DNA of 64,000 nt from assembly GCF_964204865.1 (NCBI RefSeq), contig NC_135263.1, positions 15,855,426 to 15,919,425 on the forward strand, read 5' to 3'. Each line of letters opens with the position of its first letter. Positions within the stretch are counted from its first letter, which is position 1. Position numbers and translations under genes: made by a program. The notes under the pieces are model-generated. The model had not been told where the DNA came from. It saw nothing but the letters and a program-made list of their open reading frames with translations, and ran no database searches. This DNA comes from Styela clava (taxonomy: Eukaryota; Chordata; Ascidiacea; Stolidobranchia; Styelidae). This document shows positions 3,421 through 64,000 of the stretch, piece after piece.

Positions 3421-4098
3421 GTGTTATTGAACACACGTTAACAGAGTGTAACTCCGATCTTGATTCCTTCAGAGGTCAAAAAGCACACAATGTATTGAAT
3501 GCCAATTATTATATTGTAAAGTTGCACAATCGAATTGATCCAAATAACGAATTACACTTGAAACCTTAAAGCAAGTATATGTGATGAAACCAAATTTCTA
3601 ACTAACAAAGAACGGCAAAGACAAGCTACACTGAGTGAGAAAAATATATCATAAAGGAAATGAATTGGGACAACGACCTTGTTTCAGGCAAATAACATGC
3701 ACTACTGACAATAAGTGGTGAAAATATTAAAATACACAGTAACTATCCTTATGTACTTGTGTTATTGAACACGCGTTAACAGAGTGTAACTCCGATCTTG
3801 ACTCCTCCAGAGGTCAAAAAGCACACAATGTATTGAATGCCAATTGTTAAATTGTAAAGTTGCACAATCGAATTGATCCAAATAACGAATTACACTTGAA
3901 ACCTTAAAGCAAGTATATGTGATGAAACCAAATTTCTAACTAACAAAGAACGGCAAAGACGAGCTACACTGAGTGAGAAAAATATATCATATAGGAAATG
4001 AATTGGGACAACGACCTTGTTTCAGGCAAATAACATGCACTACTAACAATAAGTGGTGAAAATATTAAAATACACAGTAACTATCCTTATGTACTTGC
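3421..4098. repeat. Two-copy tandem repeat, period 338 bp
   Basis: 3421-3758 is repeated directly by 3759-4098 with few differences. Both start GTGTTATTGAACAC and end TCCTTATGTACTTG. No open frame or known family was recognised. The flanks (3340-3420 and after 4100) are not part of the repeat. Confidence 0.9.
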
Positions 4099-5966: not shown

Positions 5967-6462
5967 CAGGGGTTCTCAAACATTTGGTGTTGCGGAGCCC
6001 TTGAAAAGTTGAATATTATTTGCGGAGCCCCAAAATAAATGTTAAAATTGTTACTTTCAGATTAATATTCCTGGGCAAGTTAAAAGTACTTTACTTATTC
6101 AAAATGCTGAACCTTTTTTAATAGGATTAACACAAGCCATAAATGAATCTGAATTTCATACTAAAGCTGTAAATTTGACACTTGACGAACATATTAATAA
6201 ATTAGGGGTCGAATCTTTTCTCTTTTGACATTTCTGGAAGACTTAACAGGCCGCTAATAACGTGCGCGATTTTATTTTGTTACAATCGCCGATTTTTTTC
6301 GTCAGCATGGCGTGTTTTGAACATCTTTACGCCGGTGTTTATTCTCCTTAAATCAAAAATTTCCCTCGGCATATACATGTATTGTTACACAATGACGACG
6401 TTAATTAGGCTTCCCGCTGCTTGTCAGCAGGGAACCTATTGTATTCCTGTGTTTTATTATTA

Positions 6463-6513
<51 letters not shown>

Positions 6514-9106
6514 TTTTTTTTTCAAATTGGTCCTACAAACTTTAAATTCACCTCAAATGTGCAGAAGTTCTCAGCTAGCAATAAAATGCAAATTTCATGC
6601 ATGACTGACCACGCTTTCACGCTCCAGTGAGCAAAACGCGTTTTCAGTTTTTTTGCAATTTCTCAAAATTGATACATGGTATTGGGTTGAAATTCATAAC
6701 AATGATTAATGGACATGTTCCGGATACAATATGTCAAGGATACGCATGAGTGACCTCGGCGATACGCTCCAGTGAGCAATATAGGATTTTACATTTTCAT
6801 CTTCTTCTCGAGAACGACAATACTTAAAGACTTGAAATTTACATCACATGCAGATAATGAGTCTCCCATCATAACTTGCAAATTTTATGCATGACTGACC
6901 ACGCTTTCACGCTCCAGTGAGCAAAACGCGTCTTCAGTTTTTTTGCGATTTCTCAAAATTGATACATGGTATTGGGTTGAAATTCATAACAATGATTAAT
7001 GGACATGTTCCGGATACAATATGTCAAGGATACGCATGAGAGACCTCGGCGATACGCTCCAGTGAGCAATATAGGATTTCACATTTTCATCTTCTTCTCG
7101 AGAACGACAATACTTAGAGACTTGAAATTTACATCACATGCAGATAATAAGTCCCCCATCGTAAACTGCAAATTTTATGCATGACTAACCACGCTTTCAC
7201 GCTCCAGTGAACGAAACGCGTCTTCAGTTTTTTTTACGCGGGAAGCCTGTTAAAGCTGCACGCAGCTCTAGTTATTATTTATTTTTATTATTTTTTTTTC
7301 AAATTGGTCCTACAAACTTGAAATTCACCTCAAATGTGCAGAAGTTCTCAGCTAGCAATAAAATGCAAATTTTATGCATGACTGACCACGCTTTCACGCT
7401 CCAGTGAGCAAAACGCGTTTTCAGTTTTTTTGCAATTTCTCAAAATTGATACATGGTATTGGGTTGAAATTCATAACAATGATTAATGGACATGTTCCGG
7501 AAACAATATGTCAAGGATACGCATGAGTGACCTCGGCGATACGCTCCAGTGAGCAATATAGGATTTTACATTTTCATCTTCTTCTCGAGAACGACACTAC
7601 TTAGAGACTTGAAATTTACATAGCATGCAGACAATGAGTCCCCCATCATAATTTGCAAATTTTATGCATGACTGACCACGCTTTCACGCTCCAGTGAGCA
7701 AAACGCGTTTTCAGTTTTTTTGCGATTGCTCAAAATTGATACATGCTATTGGGTTGAAATTCATAACAATGATTAATGGACATGTTCCGGATACGATATG
7801 TCAAGGATACGCATGAGTGACCTCGGCGATACGCTCCAGTGAGCAATATAGGATTTTACATTTTCATCTTCTTCTCGAGAACGACACTACTTAGAGACTT
7901 GAAATTTACATCACATGCAGATAATAAGTCCCCCATCATAAATTGCAAATTTTATGCATGACTGACCACGCTTTCACGCTCCAGTGAGCAAGACGCGTTT
8001 TCAGTTTTTTTTACGCGGGAAGCCTGTTAAAGCTGCACGCAGCTCTAGTTCCTTTTTTGTTCTCGTGGGACATTATGAGTTCAATGTGAAAAACATGTTA
8101 CCATATAATAGTCATCTGCGACGAAATGTTAAAAATTATAATTAATAAAGAGATGAATCCGCAACTCAAATTTCTTGATTGAAAAACGGCATTCTAAAAT
8201 ATTGAACTGAAACTTAAAATGGAAGATCACACGTTTGGCTTCAGCAGACTCACCTCAGATTGAAAACGCTTTTATAGACATTGTAAATCACAAAATTTGG
8301 TGTTATGTGAGGTTTTCGTCGTAGTAACTGCGAAATCGAAACACAGTCAATTGTGCGCGCGATGTACCTTTTTTTCCCATTCTGAAACTACCGACGAAGC
8401 CGCACGCAATCAATTGTGCACGCGATCCACGATGTACCTTTTTTCATTCTGAAACTACCGACGGAGCCGAATGCAATAAAATAAATTCTAATTGTTCGTA
8501 TTTTGCCCAGACATTGTGATTTTTTAAACGGCGATATCCTGCTTAAAAATAATCTCAGGTGCGAAAGAACAAATCAAGTTTGACAAATCCCAAGATCGCG
8601 AAAATACGACTCCACTTTATTTATTGTTGGCAGTTTATTACATATTTTATGTTAATTTAGAATAGTATTCTTTCATTTAAGTAATACTAATACTAATCTC
8701 GAATCAAACTTGAGTAACGATGATCACAATTACATTATAACGAAGGGACACGTTGAATGCTCGCATCGGTCATGGACTGAATATTTTACGCAACAGAAAT
8801 CTCGTTATCCGTTTTTTTAATGGCGAAGAATGTTGCGCGGAAATTTCCGATTCCAATTTTGAACCACCTCCCTCTTAAGAACCCTGGCTGCGCTCCTGCT
8901 TATAAATAATGTCATTTTTAATTCAGCCTCTTTACCATATTTCGAGGCTGTATTGTTGTCAGATTTTATCAACGCTGTTATTGCTTCTTTCAACAGTTAC
9001 AAAATTTTGAGTCAGTATTTCGAAGAGTAATCGAATAGCTCGCGGAGCCCCTGGGTTTCTCTCGCGGAGCCCTGAGGCTCCGTACGGAGCACTTTGAGAA
9101 CCTATG
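5967..9106. mobile_element. hAT-superfamily element with 8-bp target duplication, hosting a Helentron-like insertion
   Basis: The left end CAGGGGTTCTCAAACATTTG at 5967 and the right end, complementary to CATAGGTTCTCAAAGTG, at 9106 are imperfect inverted repeats of the hAT type. The identical 8-mer CCATAGAG flanks both sides (5959-5966 and 9107-9114), a perfect hAT-style target duplication. Repeated GCGGAGCCC boxes lie inside each end. No transposase was recognised, so it is non-autonomous. A Helentron-like array (6405-8048) sits within it and accounts for about half its length. Confidence 0.87.
6405..8048 (+). mobile_element. Helentron/DINE-1-like element array 1 (one head, two bodies, two tails)
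   Basis: Starts with the family head AGGCTTCCCGCTGC (6407), then an (ATT)n tract (about 6456-6512), then a body of two 290-bp repeat units. A tail follows: GCGGGAAGCC, the hairpin AGCTGCACGCAGCT, and CTAG ending at 7271. A second T-tract plus body of two units and a second tail ending CTAG at 8048 come next. The head and tail carry inverted GGCTTCCCGC/GCGGGAAGCC. Only one head matches two tails, unlike the balanced pattern expected from nesting. Confidence 0.8.
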
Positions 9107-54894: not shown

Positions 54895-54897
54895 ATT

Positions 54898-55395
54898 AGG
54901 CTTCCCGCTGCTTGTCAGCAGGGAACCTATTGTATTCCTGTGTTTTATTATTATTATTATTATTTATTTATTATTAGGCTTCCCGCTGCTTGTCAGCAGG
55001 GAACCTATTGTATTCCTGTGTTTTATTAATATTATTTATTAGGCTTCCCGCTGCTTGTCAGCAGGGAACCTATTGTATTCCTGTGTTTTATTATTATTAT
55101 TTATTTATTATTATTATTATTAGGCTTCCCGCTGCTTGTCAGCAGGGAACCTATTGTATTCCTGTGTTTTATTATTATTATTTATTATTATTAGGCTTCC
55201 CGCTGCTTGTCAGCAGGGAACCTATTGTATTCCTGTGTTTTATTATTATTATTTATTATTATTTATTATTATTTATTATTATTATTTATTATTAGGCTTC
55301 CCGCTGCTTGTCAGCAGGGAACCTATTGTATTCCTGTGTTTTATTATTATTATTTATTATTATTTATTATTTATTATTATTTATTATTATTATTA
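54898..55395 (+). repeat. Six stacked heads separated by (ATT)n tracts
   Basis: Six copies of the same head of roughly 55 bases, each with a foldback (CCCGCTG, loop CTTGT, CAGC-A-GGG). They are separated only by ATT-rich microsatellite of varying length, with no bodies between. This is the opening side of the nested insertions. Confidence 0.92.
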
Positions 55396-55396
55396 T

Positions 55397-56115
55397 TTTT
55401 TTTTCAAATTGGTCCTACAAACTTGAAATTCACCTCAAATGTGCAGAAGTTCTCAGCTAGCAATAAAATGCAAATTTTATGCATGACTGACCACGCTTTC
55501 ACGCTTCAGTGAGCAAAACGCGTATTCAGTTTTTTTGCGATTTCTCAAAATTGATACATGGTATTGGGTTGAAATTCATAACAATGATTAATGGACATGT
55601 TCCGGATACGATATGTCAAGGATACGCATGAGTGACCTCGGCGATACGCTCCAGTGAGCAATATAGGATTTTACATTTTCATCTTCTTCTCGAGAACGAC
55701 ACTACTTAGAGACTTGAAATTTACATCACATGCAGACAATAAGTCCCCCATCATAATTTGCAAATTTTATGCATGACTGACCACGCTTTCACGCTCCAGT
55801 GAGCAAAACGCGACTTCAGTTTTTTTGCGATTTCTCAAAATTGATACATGCTATTGGGTTGAAATTCATAACAATGATTAATGGAAATGTTCCGGATACG
55901 ACATATCAAGGATACGCATGAGTGACCTCGGCGATACGCTCCAGTGAGCAATATAGGATTTTACATTTTCATCTTCTTCTCGAGAACGACACTACTTAGA
56001 GACTTGAAATTTACATCACATGCAGATAATGAGTCCCCCATCATAAACTGCAAATTTTATGCATGACTGACCACGCTTTCACGCTCCAGTGCGCAAAACG
56101 CGTCTCCAGCTTTTT
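55397..56115 (+). repeat. Representative body: 290-bp tandem units, each an ancient dimer
   Basis: The period, measured from successive GGACATGTTCCGG-type sites (55593, 55883), is about 290 bases. Within one unit GCATGACTGACC...ACGCTCCAGTGAGC and GCATGAGTGACC...ACGCTCCAGTGAGC lie about 145 bases apart, and TTGAAATTYA recurs at matching offsets, so the unit descends from a doubled 145-bp monomer. The same units fill all other bodies of the array and array 1. Confidence 0.9.
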
Positions 56116-59100
56116 TTACGCGGGAAGCCTGTTAAAGCTGCACGCAGCTCTAGTTATTTATTATTATTATTATTTTTTTTTCAAATTGGTCCTACAAACT
56201 TGAAATTCACCTCAAATGTGCAGAAGTTCTCAGCTAGCAATAAAATGCAAAGTTTATGCATGACTGACCACGCTTTCACGCTCCAGTGAGCAAAACGCGT
56301 ATTCAGTTTTTTTGCGATTTCTCAAAATTGATACATGGTATTGGGTTGAAATTCATAACAATGATTAATGGACATGTTCCGGATACGATATGTCAAGGAT
56401 ACGCATGAGTGACCTCGGCGATACGCTCCAGTGAGCAATATAGGATTTTACATTTTCATCTTCTTCTCGAGAACGACACTACTTAGAGACTTGAAATTTA
56501 CATCACATGCAGACAATAAGTCCCCCATCATAATTTGCAAATTTTATGCATGACTGACCACGCTTTCACGCTCCAGTGAGCAAAACGCGACTTCAGTTTT
56601 TTTGCAATTTCTCAAAATTGATACATGCTATTGGGTTGAAATTCATAACAATGATTAATGGACATGTTCCGGATACGATATGTCAAGGATACGCATGAGT
56701 GACCTCGGCGATACGCTCCAGTGAGCAATATAGGATTTTACATTTTCATCTTCTTCTTGAGAACGACACTACTTAGAGACTTGAAATTTACATCACATGC
56801 AGATAATAAGTCCCCCATGATAAATTGCAAATTTTATGCATGACTGACCACGCTTTCACGCTTCAGTGAGCAAAAGGCATTTTCAGTTTTTTTGCGATTT
56901 CTCAAAATTGATACATGCTATTGGGTTGAAATTCATAACAATGATTAATGGACATGTTCCGGATACGACGTGTCAAGGATACGCATGAGTGACCTCGGCG
57001 ATACGCTCCAGTGAGCATTATAGGATTTTACATTTCCATCTTCTACTCGAGAACGACACTACTTAGAGACTTGAAATTTGCATCACATGCAGATAATAAG
57101 TCCCCCATCATAAATTCCAAATTTTATGCATGACTGACGAAGCTTTCACGCTCCAGTGAACAAAACGCGTTTTCAGTTTTTTTGCGATTTCTCAAAATTG
57201 ATACATGCTATTGGGTTGAAATTCATAACAATGATTAATGGACATGTTCCGGATACGACATATCAAGGATACGCATGAGTGTCCTCGGCGATACGCTCCA
57301 GTGAGCAATATAGGATTTTACATTTTCATCTTCTTCTCGAGAACGACACTACTTAGAGACTTGAAATTTACATCACATGCAGATAATAAGTCCCCCATCG
57401 TAAACTGCAAATATCATGCATGACTGACCACGCTTTCACGCTCCAGTGAGCAAAACGCGTCTTCAGTTTTTTTTACGCGGGAAGCCTGTTAAAGCTGCAC
57501 GCAGCTCTAGTTTATTATTAGGCTTCCCGCTGCTTGTCAGCAGGGAACCTATTGTATTCCTGTGTTTTATTATTATTATTTATTATTATTTATTATTATT
57601 ATTTATTATTATTTATTATTATTATTATTTTTTTTTCAAATTGGTCCTACAAACTTGAAATTCACCTCAAATGTGCAGAAGTTCTCAGCTAGCAATAAAA
57701 TGCAAATTTTATGCATGACTGACCACGCTTTCACGCTCCAGTGAGCAAAACGCGTATTCAGTTTTTTTGCGATTTCTCAAAATTGATACATGGTATTGGG
57801 TTGAAATTCATCACAATGATTAATGGACATGTTCCGGATACGATATGTCAAGGATACGCATGAGTGACCTCGGCGATACGCTCCAGTGAGCAATATAGGA
57901 TTTTACATTTTCATCTTCTTCTCGAGAACGACACTACTTAGAGACTTGAAATTTACATCACATGCAGACAATAAGTCCCCCATCATAATTTGCAAATTTT
58001 ATGCATGACTGACCACGCTTTCACGCTCCAGTGAGCAAAACGCGACTTCAGTTTTTTTGCAATTTCTCAAAATTGATACATGCTATTGGGTTGAAATTCA
58101 TAACAATGATTAATGGACATGTTCCGGATACGATATGTCAAGGATACGCATGAGTGACCTCGGCGATACGCTCCAGTGAGCAATATAGGATTTTACATTT
58201 TCATCTTCTTCTTGAGAACGACACTACTTAGAGACTTGAAATTTAAATCACATGCAGATAATAAGTCCCCCATCATAAATTCCAAATTTTATGCATGACT
58301 GACGAAGCTTTCACGCTCCAGTGAGCAAAAGGCATTTTCAGTTTTTTTGCGATTTCTCAAAATTGATACATGCTATTGGGTTGAAATTCATAACAATGAT
58401 TAATGGACATGTTCCGGATACGACGTGTCAAGGATACGCATGAGTGACCTCGGCGATACGCTCCAGTGAGCATTATAGGATTTTACATTTCCATCTTCTA
58501 CTCGAGAACGACACTACTTAGAGACTTGAAATTTAAATCACATGCAGATAATAAGTCCCCCATCATAAATTCCAAATTTTATGCATGACTGACGAAGCTT
58601 TCACGCTCCAGTGAACAAAACGCGTTTTCAGTTTTTTTGCGATTTCTCAAAATTGATACATGCTATTGGGTTGAAATTCATAACAATGATTAATGGACAT
58701 GTTCCGGATACGACATATCAAGGATACGCATGAGTGTCCTCGGCGATACGCTCCAGTGAGCAATATAGGATTTTACATTTTCATCTTCTTCTCGAGAACG
58801 ACACTACTTAGAGACTTGAAATTTACATCACATGCAGATAATAAGTCCCCCATCGTAAACTGCAAATATCATGCATGACTGACCACGCTTTCACGCTCCA
58901 GTGAGCAAAACGCGTCTTCAGTTTTTTTTACGCGGGAAGCCTGTTAAAGCTGCACGCAGCTCTAGTTATTATTTATTATTATTATTATTTTTTTTTCAAA
59001 TTGGTCCTACAAACTTGAAATTCACCTCAAATGTGCAGAAGTTCTCAGCTAGCAATAAAATGCAAATTTTATGCATGACTGACCACGCTTTCACGCTCCA

Positions 59101-61192
59101 GTGAGCAAAACGCGTATTCAGTTTTTTTGCGATTTCTCAAAATTGATACATGGTATTGGGTTGAAATTCATAACAATGATTAATGGACATGTTCCGGATA
59201 CGATATGTCAAGGATACGCATGAGTGACCTCGGCGATACGCTCCAGTGAGCAATATAGGATTTTACATTTTCATCTTCTTCTCGAGAACGACACTACTTA
59301 GAGACTTGAAATTTACATCACATGCAGACAATAAGTCCCCCATCATAATTTGCAAATTTTATGCATGACTGACCACGCTTTCACGCTCCAGTGAGCAAAA
59401 CGCGGATTCAGTTTTTTTGCGATTTCTCAAAATTGATACATGGTATTGGGTTGAAATTCATAACAATGATTAATGGACATGTTCCGGATACAATATGTCA
59501 AGGATACGCATGAGTGACCTCGGCGATACGCTCCAGTGAGCAATATAAGATTTTACATTTTCATCTTCTTCTCGAGAACGACACTACTTAGAGACTTGAA
59601 ATTTACATCACATGCAGACAATAAGTCCCCCATCATAATTTGCAAATTTTATGCATGACTGACCACGATTTCACGCTCCAGTGAGCAAAACGCGTTTTCA
59701 GTTTTTTTGCGATTTCTCAAAATTGATACATGCTATTGGGTTGAAATTCATAACAATGATTAATGGACATGTTCCGGATACGATATGTCAAGGATACGCA
59801 TGAGTGACCTCGGCGATACGCTCCAGTGAGCAATATAGGATTTTACATTTTCATCTTCTTCTCGAGAACGACACTACTTAGAGACTTGAAATTTACATCA
59901 CATGCAGATAATAAGTCCCCCATCATAAATTGCAAATTTTATGCATGACTGACCTCGCTTTCACGCTCCAGTGAGCAAAACGCGTTTTCAGTTTTTTTGC
60001 GATTTCTCAAAATTGATACATGCTATTGGGTTGAAATTCATAACAATGATTAATGGACATGTTCCGGATACGATATGTCAAGGATACGCATGAGTGACCT
60101 CGGCGATACGCTCCAGTGAGCAATATAGGATTTTACATTTTCATCTTCTTCTCGAGAACGACACTTCTTAGAGACTTGAAATTTACATCACATGCAGATA
60201 ATAAGGCCCCCATCATAATTTGCAAATTTCATGCATGACTGACCACGCTTTCAGGCTCCAGTGAGCAAAACGCGTCTTCAGTTTTTTTTTACGCGGGAAG
60301 CCTGTTAAAGCTGCACGCAGCTCTAGTTTTTTATTATTATTTATTATTATTATTATTTTTTTTTCAAATTGGTCCTACAAACTTGAAATTCACCTCAAAT
60401 GTGCAGAAGTTCTCAGCTAGCAATAAAATGCAAATTTTATGCATGACTGACCACGCTTTCACGCTCCAGTGAGCAAAAACGTATTCAGTTTTTTTGCGAT
60501 TTCTCAAAATTGATACATGGTATTGGGTTGATATTCATAACAATGATTTATGGACATGTTCCGGATACAATATGTCAAGGATACGCATGAGTGACCTCGG
60601 CGATACGCTCCAGTGAGCAATATATGATTTTACATTTTCATCTTCTTCTCGAGAACGACACTAATTAGAGACTTAAAATTTACATCACATGCAGACAATA
60701 AGTCCCCCATCATAATTTGCAAATTTTATGCATGACTGACCACGCTTTCACGCTCCAGTGAGCAAAACGCGTCTTCAGTTTTTTTGCGATTTCTCAAAAT
60801 TAATACATGCTATTGGGTTGAAATTCATAACAATGATTAATGGACATGTTCCGGATACGATATGTCAAGGATACGCATGAGTGACCTCGGCGATACGCTC
60901 CAGTGAGCAATATAGGTTTTTACATTTTCATCTTCTTCTCGAGAACGACACTACTTAGAGACTTGAAATTTACATCACATGCAGATAATAAGTCCCTCAT
61001 CATAAATTGCAAATTTTATGCATGACTGACCACGCATTCACGCTCCAGTGAGCAAAACGCGTCTTCAGTTTTTTTTACGCGGGAATCCTGTTAAAGCTGC
61101 ACGCAGCTCTGGTTATTATTATTATTATTATTACTATTATTATTATTAGGCTTCCCGCTGCTTGTCAGCAGGGAACCTATTGTATTCCTGTG

Positions 61193-61226
<34 letters not shown>

Positions 61227-64000
61227 TATTATTATTTATTTTTAATATTTTTTTTTCAAATTGGTCCTACAAACTTGAAATTCACCTCAAATGTGCAGAA
61301 GTTCTCAGCTAGCAATAAAATGCAAATTTTATGCATGACTGACCACGCTTTCACGCTCCAGTGAGCAAAACGCGTTTTCAGTTTTTTTGCGATTTCTCAT
61401 AATTGATACATGCTATTGGGTTGAAATTCATAACAATGATTGATGGACATGTTCCGGATGCGATATGTCAAGGATACGCATGAGTGACTTCGGCGATACG
61501 CTCCAGTGAGCAATATAGGATTTTACATTTTCATCTTCTTCTCGAGAACGACACTACTCAGAGACTTGAAATTTACATCACATGCAGATAATAAGTCCCC
61601 CATGATAAATTGCAAATTTTATGCATGACTGACCACGCTTTCACGCTCCAGTGAGCAAAACACGTTTTCAGTTTTTTTGCAATTTCTCAAAATTGATACA
61701 TGCTATTGGGTTGAAATTCATAACAATGATTAATGGACGTGTTCCGGATACGATATGTCAAGGATACGCATGAGTGACCTCGGCGATACGCTCCAGTGAG
61801 CAATATAGGATTTTACATTTTCATCTTCTTCTCGAGAACGACACGACTTAGAGACTTGAAATTCAAATCACATGCAGATAATAAGTCCCCCATCATAAAT
61901 TGCAAATGTTATGCATGACTGACCACGCTTTCACGCTCCAGTGAGCAAAACGCGCTCTTCATTTTTTTTACGCGGGAAGCCTGTTAAAGCTGCACGCAGC
62001 TCTAGTTATTATTATTTTTTTTTCAAATTGGTCCCACAAACTTGAAATTCACCTCAAATGTGCAGAAGTTCTCAGCTAGCAATAAAATGCAAATTTTATG
62101 CATGGCTGACCAAGCTTTCACGCTCCAGTGAACAAAACGCGTTTTTAGTTTTTTTGCGATTTCTCAAAATTAATACATGCTATTGGGTTGAAATTCATAA
62201 CAATGATTAATGGACATGTTCCGGATACGATATGTCAAGGATACGCATGAGTGACCTCGGCGATACGCTCCAGTGAGCAATATAGGATTTCACATTTTCA
62301 TCTTCTTCTCGAGAACGACACTACTTAGAGACTTGAAAGTTACATCACATGCAGATAATGAGTCCCCCATCATAATTTGCAAATTTTATGCATGACTGAC
62401 CGCGCTTTCATGCTCCAGTGAGCAAAACGCGTTTTCAGTTTTTTTGCGATTTTTTAAAATTGATACATGCTATTGGGTTGAAATTCATACCAATGATTAA
62501 TGGACATGTTCCGGATACGATATGTCAAGGATACGCATGAGTGACCTCGGCGATACGATCCAGTGATCAATATAGGATTTTACATTTTCATCTTCTTCTC
62601 GAGAACGACACTACTTAGAGACTTGAAATTTACATCACATGCAGATAATAAGTCCCCCATGATAAATTGCAATTTTTATGCATGACTGACCACGCTTTCA
62701 CGCTCCAGTGGGCAAAACGCGTCTTCCGTTTTTTTTACGCGGGAAGCCTGTTAAAGCTGCACGCAGCTCTAGTTGTTATTATTATTATTAGGCTTCCCGC
62801 TGCTTGTCAGCAGGGAACCTTTTGTATTCCTGTGTTTTTAGGCTTCCCGCTGCTTGTCAGCAGGGAACCTATTGTATTCCTGTGTTTTATTATTATTATT
62901 ATTATTCATTTATTTATTTATTTATTTATTTTTATTATTTTTTTTTCAAATTGGTCCTACAAACTTGAAATTCACCTCAAATGTGCAGAAGTTCTCAGCT
63001 AGCAATAAAATGCAAATTTTATGCATGAGTGACCACGCTTTCACGCTCCAGTGAGCAAAACGCGTTTTCAGTTTTTTTGCGATTTCTCAAAATTGATACA
63101 TGGTATTGGGTTGAAATTCATAACAATGATTAACGGACATGTTCCGGATACGACATGTCAAGGATACGCATGAGTGACCTCGGCGATACGCTCCAGTGAG
63201 CAATATAGGATTTAACATTTTCATCTTCTTCTCGAGAACGACACTACTTAGAGACTTGAAATTTACATCACATGCAGATAATAAGTCCCCCATCATAAAT
63301 TGCAAATTTAATGCATGACTGACCACGGTTTCACGCTCCAGTGAGCAAAACGCGTTTTCAGTTTTTTTGCGATTTCTCAAAATTGATACATGCTATTGGG
63401 TTGAAATTCACACCAATGATTAATGGACATGTTCTGGATACGATATGTCAAGGATACGCATGAGTGACCTCGGCAATACGCTCCAGTGAGCAATATAGGA
63501 TTTAACATTTTCATCTTCTTCTCGAGAACGACACTACTTAGAGACTTGAAATTTACATCACATGCAGATAATGAGTCCCCCATCATAAATTGCAAATTTT
63601 ATGCATGACTGACTACGCTTTCACGCTCCAGTGAGCAAAACGCGTCTTCAGTTTTTTTGCGATTTCTCAAAATTGATACATGCTATTGGGTTGAAATTCA
63701 TAACAATGATTAATGGACATGTTCCGGATACGACATGTCAAGGATACGCATGAGTGACCTCGGCGATACGCTCCAGTGAGCAATATAGGATTTTACACTT
63801 TCATCTTCTTCTCGAGAACGACACTACTTAGAGACTCGAAATTCACATCACATGCAGATAATAAGTCCCCCATCATAATTTGCGAATTTTATGCATGACT
63901 GACCACGTTTCCACGCTCCAGTGAGCAAAACGCGTCTTCAGTTTTTTTTTACGCGGGAAGCCTGTTAAAGCTGCACGCAGCTCTAGTTTATTATTATTAC

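Follow-up and report, generated by a model that had tools for sequence, protein, structure and literature searches.

How do dispersed transposons begin to form satellite-like blocks? The question is raised by a 64,000-nucleotide stretch of the 376.6-Mb genome of Styela clava (C18:15855426-15919425; hereafter the window), whose right end holds an array of mobile elements of one family. Each element has, in order, a head, some 60 bp of ATT microsatellite, a body made up of 290-bp repeats, and a tail. A first-pass annotation of the window read heads as opening and tails as closing parentheses, and proposed that the elements had repeatedly inserted into their own ATT tract. Very probably, the array is indeed a stack of non-autonomous Helentrons (HINEs), built by self-insertion into the ATT tracts of older copies.

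The head is a hairpin beginning with AGGCTTCCCGC; the tail comprises an inverted GCGGGAAGCCT, a short palindrome, and CTAG. A search of the window with a 30-bp head core and the tail, tolerating up to three mismatches, found ten heads and eight tails between 54898 and 63986, all on the forward strand. The head core was perfect in all ten cases, and 100 shuffled sequences gave no match. The order is exactly that described by the first-pass annotation: six heads, two tails, a head, three tails, a head, two tails, two heads, and a tail, so that the count of open elements never becomes negative. Taken alone this is weak evidence, because a random order of ten heads and eight tails behaves likewise with probability 3/11.

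The head run begins at 54898..54946 (head 1, 49 bp) and continues with heads 2 to 5 (54976..55024, 55041..55089, 55122..55170, and 55193..55241) to the innermost, head 6 (55294..55342), whose ATT tract is intact. The five spacers and this tract are six distinct sequences. Head 6 is closed by body 1 (55405..56119, built of the 290-bp units) and tail 1 (56120..56153, where CTAG is followed by TT), and head 5 by body 2 (56182..57476) and tail 2 (57477..57510). Head 7 (57520..57568) then opens, and is closed by body 3 (57637..58931) and tail 3 (58932..58965). Body 4 (58997..60292) with tail 4 (60293..60326) closes head 4, and body 5 (60365..61078) with tail 5 (61079..61112, two mismatches) closes head 3. 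Head 8 (61148..61196) is paired with tail 6 (61972..62005) across body 6 (61257..61971), and head 2 with tail 7 (62739..62772), which body 7 (62024..62738) precedes. Head 9 (62790..62838), its tract cut at the very start, is followed by head 10 (62840..62888), body 8 (62947..63952), and tail 8 (63953..63986), the partner of head 10; a foreign repeat then begins within the tract, at the window edge. The partner tails of heads 1 and 9 lie outside the window, at extended positions 67107 and 66017. One detail of the first-pass description did not hold, namely that an outer element's ATT tract and body come after every tail: of the seven tails before the last, four lead to ATT and a body, and three to ATT and another head.

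Do the two open elements close to the right, as was predicted? They do. The next 7.2 kb continue the array with five heads and seven tails, a net of minus two. The whole array has 15 heads and 15 tails, with none of the excess tails that would have spoken against nesting; its depth never falls below zero, and reaches zero at the last tail, after which the sequence is non-family flank. It forms two balanced groups, of 11 and 4 elements, which meet tail to head with TT between them. A 421-bp stretch separates the tail at 63953 from the next head. This could be taken for a host edge, an interpretation that is ruled out since the stretch is an interspersed repeat: 395 of its 421 bp match 40 places, itself included, at 96-100% identity (40 scored of 2789 first-look candidates). 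Its sequence is best read as a foreign insert within an ATT tract. The 395-bp repeat insert spans window position 64000 and L009:426-820.

Why do the copies nest, and in a single orientation? Unlinked insertions define the family target as T-[A/T]-A-T-T. Among 30 outermost left flanks, T occupies position -5 in 30, A or T position -4 in 29, A position -3 in 26, and TT positions -2/-1 in 30, and the right flank starts with TT in 28 of 29 outermost insertions; such TT on both sides is a feature of Helentrons and HINEs. The longest ATT run in 28 outermost left flanks (40 nt checked) is two units. Among the first 100 (ATT)7 matches listed (C1-C4), most lie in family loci, as judged by eye against the head list. 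The preference may be for ATT tracts of any kind or for the family's in particular. Within the window array, the tract presents the target, TWATT, at 242 places in 1.3 kb (189 per kb) and at none on the opposite strand; the bodies present it at 21 places in 13.6 kb (1.5 per kb), against a background of 7.2 per kb. With its targets packed together and all facing one way, the ATT tract accounts for the nesting as well as for the single orientation.

The same preference is seen across loci. Heads that are not first in their locus are preceded by TTATT in 93 of 108 cases, and none of 138 heads lies inside a body (120,574 bp from body start to tail, with two autonomous copies supplying about 18 kb; the count of heads takes in the C4 array with its duplicated blocks). 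Heads or tails on the opposite strand are absent from 30 of 32 loci, and the remaining two are a single pair of arrays placed back to back. At locus L016, two family arrays stand back to back in opposite orientation, their outer heads about 100 bp apart. The bodies of the window array offer 21 target sites on the forward strand and 56 on the reverse, yet received no insertion; motif share alone does not explain all of the preference for the tract.

The architecture of the elements points to their class. AGGCTTCCCGC stands at the 5' end, and 23 nt separate its inverse from the CTAG end, giving the asymmetric subterminal inverted repeats of Helentrons and HINEs; this terminal repeat occurs at 21 places in the window with at most one mismatch, compared with 0.27 expected. 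Folded as DNA, the head reaches -9.2 kcal/mol (z -3.37), consistent with a 5' hairpin. The tail holds an AGCTG-CACG-CAGCT palindrome, and the preferred DNA fold is another structure (z -0.11). A canonical Helitron does not fit: the 5' end is AGGC rather than TC, and insertion occurs after TT rather than between A and T. Single-head loci on C1 mostly have the simple form head-ATT-body-tail (11 of 13 with one head and one tail; two without a tail). An exact scan of a viral contig collection gave no match to the head motif, nor did one of a collection of genome contigs give any to the tail motif.

Autonomous copies carry the same ends. Helitron_like_N has 25 matches genome-wide, and two that were followed lie inside elements with a family head and tail, located in sister arrays. 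The first (C1:21931061-21941992) has an uninterrupted 2448-aa frame, the second half of which contains Helitron_like_N and PIF1; the domain scan covered that half, and an endonuclease was not searched for. The same half includes an HUH-like stretch. In the second (C4:10516207-10525791), three open stretches between them encode OTU, Helitron_like_N, PIF1, and Exo_endo_phos. The autonomous frame runs from tail towards head. Counting its autonomous copy, the C1_21.94 array has three heads and three tails. Judged by sequence, the family has an autonomous partner with the same ends, Rep, and helicase, and, in the C4 copy, an endonuclease. Domain content together with shared ends assigns these elements to the Helentrons, not the canonical Helitrons; and because autonomous Rep/helicase copies carry the same ends, the window elements are predicted to be their non-autonomous partners, HINEs.

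What does an insertion add? At T-rich targets this is hard to see, and here the microsatellite register provides a measure. Two single copies (L021 and L023) occupy a host repeat whose pattern is matched 889 times in the genome and whose listed forms are empty. Comparison of the empty CATAATTTTATTCCG with the filled CATAATT[element]TTTTATTCCG gives a gain of TT, and the second case agrees; the empty sites compared are paralogous, not allelic. Independently of this, split tracts rejoin best when exactly TT is removed, and less well when 0, 1, 3, or 4 bases are removed. The gained TT may be element-borne, or may be duplicated target. The part of PMC4067079 that treats this point reports no target change, though the Ts could not be placed.

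Bracket partners can be examined through the tracts they are predicted to share. To this end, 38 split tracts were set against a library of 53 intact ones, two split pairs with foreign inserts of more than 100 bp being excluded. Rejoined partner tracts minus TT lie about as near the intact library (0.058) as intact tracts lie to one another (0.053), compared with 0.066 for shuffled pairs. Shuffles did as well as bracket partners in 6 of 300 trials overall, and in 2 of 300 within arrays. The two halves of a tract correlate negatively (rho -0.40, p 0.013; 38 split tracts). A wider set of 43 split tracts gave 7 of 300 and rho -0.41, and balanced arrays alone gave 7 of 300. Partners thus fit better than random pairs, modestly, which is the outcome that the first-pass annotation had required of nesting. 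In the one exact case, the rejoined tract of head 4, with its two inner groups removed, equals the intact tract at extended position 68784 in 62 of 62 bases, 13.7 kb away.

Could such an array arise without transposition? ATT lies left of, inside, and right of an element, so unequal crossing-over between ATT tracts could multiply head-ATT and body-tail-ATT separately. Insertion of a complete element contributes a head and a tail together, while tract exchange can change the number of one kind; the order of ends is in this way a readable history. Head-tail balance can therefore help to tell the two processes apart in genomes that carry such elements. Unequal crossing-over does not predict the equality seen here (15 and 15) or in half of the arrays discussed below. 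Moreover, neighbouring units are not the most alike. Among body pairs whose alignment covers more than 90% of the longer member, in the arrays sampled, adjacent bodies have a median identity of 95.9% (24 comparable pairs) and bodies from different arrays 96.0% (1422 pairs; p 0.85), and the spacers in the window's head run all differ. We consider crossing-over an unlikely source of the window array, even though bodies 2 and 3 (56182 and 57637) are 99.2% identical and blocks of 99-100% identity recur in unbalanced arrays elsewhere (C3a, C1_27.35, and C4).

The balance of the window array does not extend to the whole family. Genome-wide, 446 heads and 469 tails were found with up to three mismatches, and the reversed-pattern control gave none. 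Arrays were drawn from the best body matches and from head clusters (by eye about 35 among 100 heads listed); the clusters read were all but one of 18 on C1, 1 of 7 on C2, 4 of 8 on C3 (one in part), and 1 of 2 on C4. Among 16 multi-unit arrays, eight balance, five have 1-4 spare heads, and three have 1-2 spare tails; summed heads number 93 and tails 88 (Pearson 0.94). The bracket balance sought in other arrays is thus found in some and not in others, and a universal bracket grammar is rejected (8 of 16 arrays balance; 8 of 17 with C13). C13 was left out of the 16 because its first unit has no head, and C3_21.43-21.455 and C4 because an end lies beyond the stretch read; the three parts of the former have 2 heads and 4 tails, 2 and 4, and 7 and 7. 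C1_20.18 (three heads, two tails) was counted as read, its ends being uncertain: there is another head 9.3 kb upstream, and a Rep match falls between the two.

Several observations weigh against the self-insertion model. That half of the 16 multi-unit arrays are unbalanced is the first of these. The C4 array is strongly tail-rich, with 24 heads and 37 tails in the 40 kb read (C4:10489500-10529499), and the least balanced arrays include the largest one seen. The pairing signal is of modest strength, since with the three duplicated arrays removed from the tract comparison 34 of 300 shuffles do as well as partners and the correlation has p 0.09. Rejoined tracts have a lower median length than intact ones (51.5 vs 62, not significant at p 0.26), and just one of the 38, that of head 4, equals an intact tract, within the same array. 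Just five of the 14 pairs of adjacent bodies in the window array are comparable (99.2, 97.1, 95.7, 95.2, and 97.1%), and bodies 2 and 3 may have arisen by local duplication. Close relatives give mixed results for the pairing: the predicted tracts of bodies 2 and 3 are related; body 5 shares 99.2% identity with a C6c body, yet its predicted head tract differs from that of the C6c element; and the predicted tracts of C6a bodies 5 and 8 do not fit their relatives. Dating by tail mutations goes in the right direction and falls short of significance (mutated tails, 12 of 40 enclosing and 8 of 41 inner; p 0.31); outer tails are not clearly older. Finally, the order of the array is that of the assembly, in which repeats can be misjoined, and the region is repetitive; still, misjoins are not expected to give a bracket count that closes exactly, bodies and spacers that differ, and tracts that stay in register when rejoined, and an assembly artefact is hardly credible.

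A further exception to the bracket grammar lies within the window itself. A separate family copy on the forward strand (6407..8048) reads head-body-tail-body-tail between non-family flanks: one head and two tails, with a normal left target, TAATT, and a normal right TT. It could have inserted as a single unit or have had a head removed since; its form would follow from deletion between two heads, or from bypass of an inner tail. A head-poor unit of this kind could also come from crossing-over, as above. The normal target and TT at its outer edges would fit insertion in one piece, by rolling-circle amplification or terminator bypass, in which Rep copies past a tail, or amplifies a terminator-less circle, and inserts a ready-made multimer. 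Such models are presented in the parts consulted of PMC12628747 (describing Xiong et al. 2016), and terminator bypass in those of PMC4067079 and PMC4778049. Head-to-tail products would also place a head directly behind a tail plus TT; TAGTT, the tail end, precedes 9 of the 108 non-first heads, a further count against nesting. Multimers copied from a circle should have identical spacers and bodies, whereas the spacers of the window's head run and most bodies differ. In the three simple dimers C5, C6b+, and C6c, moreover, the cut in the tract comes after 41, 6, and 43 bases. As the origin of the window array, a ready-made multimer is very improbable.

Together, the unbalanced and duplicated arrays and the copy at 6407 lead to a two-stage view: nesting starts arrays, and recombination reshapes them. 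The Rep-helicase protein of autonomous copies with the same ends presumably moves the elements, probably by rolling-circle insertion. The family target is T-[A/T]-A-T-T, with an apparent gain of TT on the right side, and something beyond motif share would have to account for the excess targeting of the tract. A new copy would enter between the head and body of an older copy, in the same orientation, splitting it into head, new copy, and body-tail; the order of insertion would then follow the nesting. Repetition would yield balanced brackets and a satellite-like block, and later recombination, through deletion between heads and block duplication, would unbalance many arrays. Repeated insertion of the family into its own ATT tract is well supported for the window array by closure, the target-dense tract, the intact-like rejoined tracts, and bodies that are mostly not local duplicates. 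The added claim, that such growth dispenses with unequal crossing-over, is half right: the window array closes, whereas arrays on C3, C1, and C4 with blocks of 99-100% identity do not balance. The first-pass interpretation as a whole is partly supported.

How does this family compare with known systems? As described in the relevant parts of PMC4067079, non-autonomous HINE/DINE-1 Helentrons share its subterminal inverted repeats, 5' inverted repeat, microsatellite with central repeats, and, at the level of sequence, 3' palindrome, along with a T-rich target and an autonomous Rep/helicase/endonuclease partner with the same ends. Here, in contrast, insertion appears to add TT, and the five-base target recurs in the element's own tract. 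The 3' subterminal repeat lies 23 nt from the CTAG end, compared with 38-60 bp from the end in the mite families treated in that source. The partner frame runs opposite to the head-to-tail direction, and the same source gives a minus orientation for one Drosophila Helentron. Cg_HINE of the Pacific oyster, in the covered parts of PMC7492417 and PMC8268682, likewise has Helentron ends around satellite-like central repeats, a microsatellite, a TT target, and dispersed loci; those parts do not describe nested stacks in its own microsatellite or balanced ends.

Arrays of other kinds offer further comparisons. Transposon dimers formed by site preference (McGurk and Barbash 2018, as summarized in part of PMC12628747) also set copies of one family side by side as satellite seeds; here the target block is inside the element, so that copies nest, and one stack comprises 15 elements. 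Plant Helitrons amplified by the rolling-circle route (Xiong et al. 2016, through the same part of PMC12628747) likewise form arrays with many 5' ends. Many of those arrays, in that account, have several 5' ends and one 3' end, whereas here heads equal tails and most bodies are not mutual copies.

Two elements of this picture are therefore already known, within the parts of these sources consulted: Helentrons with satellite-like centres and a microsatellite (PMC7492417, PMC8268682, and PMC4067079), and target preference that co-locates copies and seeds satellites (McGurk and Barbash, via PMC12628747). Stacks in an element's own microsatellite with balanced ends were not found described in the open-licence literature, consulted mostly at the level of title and abstract. 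We tentatively suggest, as an idea on which the balance of belief falls a little short, that this is a Helentron carrying its own landing strip. The microsatellite, perhaps by selection, would be a strand-specific target array that channels new copies into old ones, sparing host DNA and making ordered blocks that record insertion history. Some of these blocks would hold the autonomous element, and the register would display the exact gain of TT.

A few further observations concern individual loci. The tail-rich C4 array contains an autonomous Helentron, and its bodies are duplicated at up to 100% identity. On C1, a one-head copy (L026) and an array (L035) lie about 18 kb apart, and their right flanks are almost identical, pointing to a segmental duplication of larger extent. 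C6a has an 813-bp spacer, and C1_17.99 a 2.9-kb insert. In the window, a 338-bp unit at 3421-4097 is present as two tandem copies, 97% alike.

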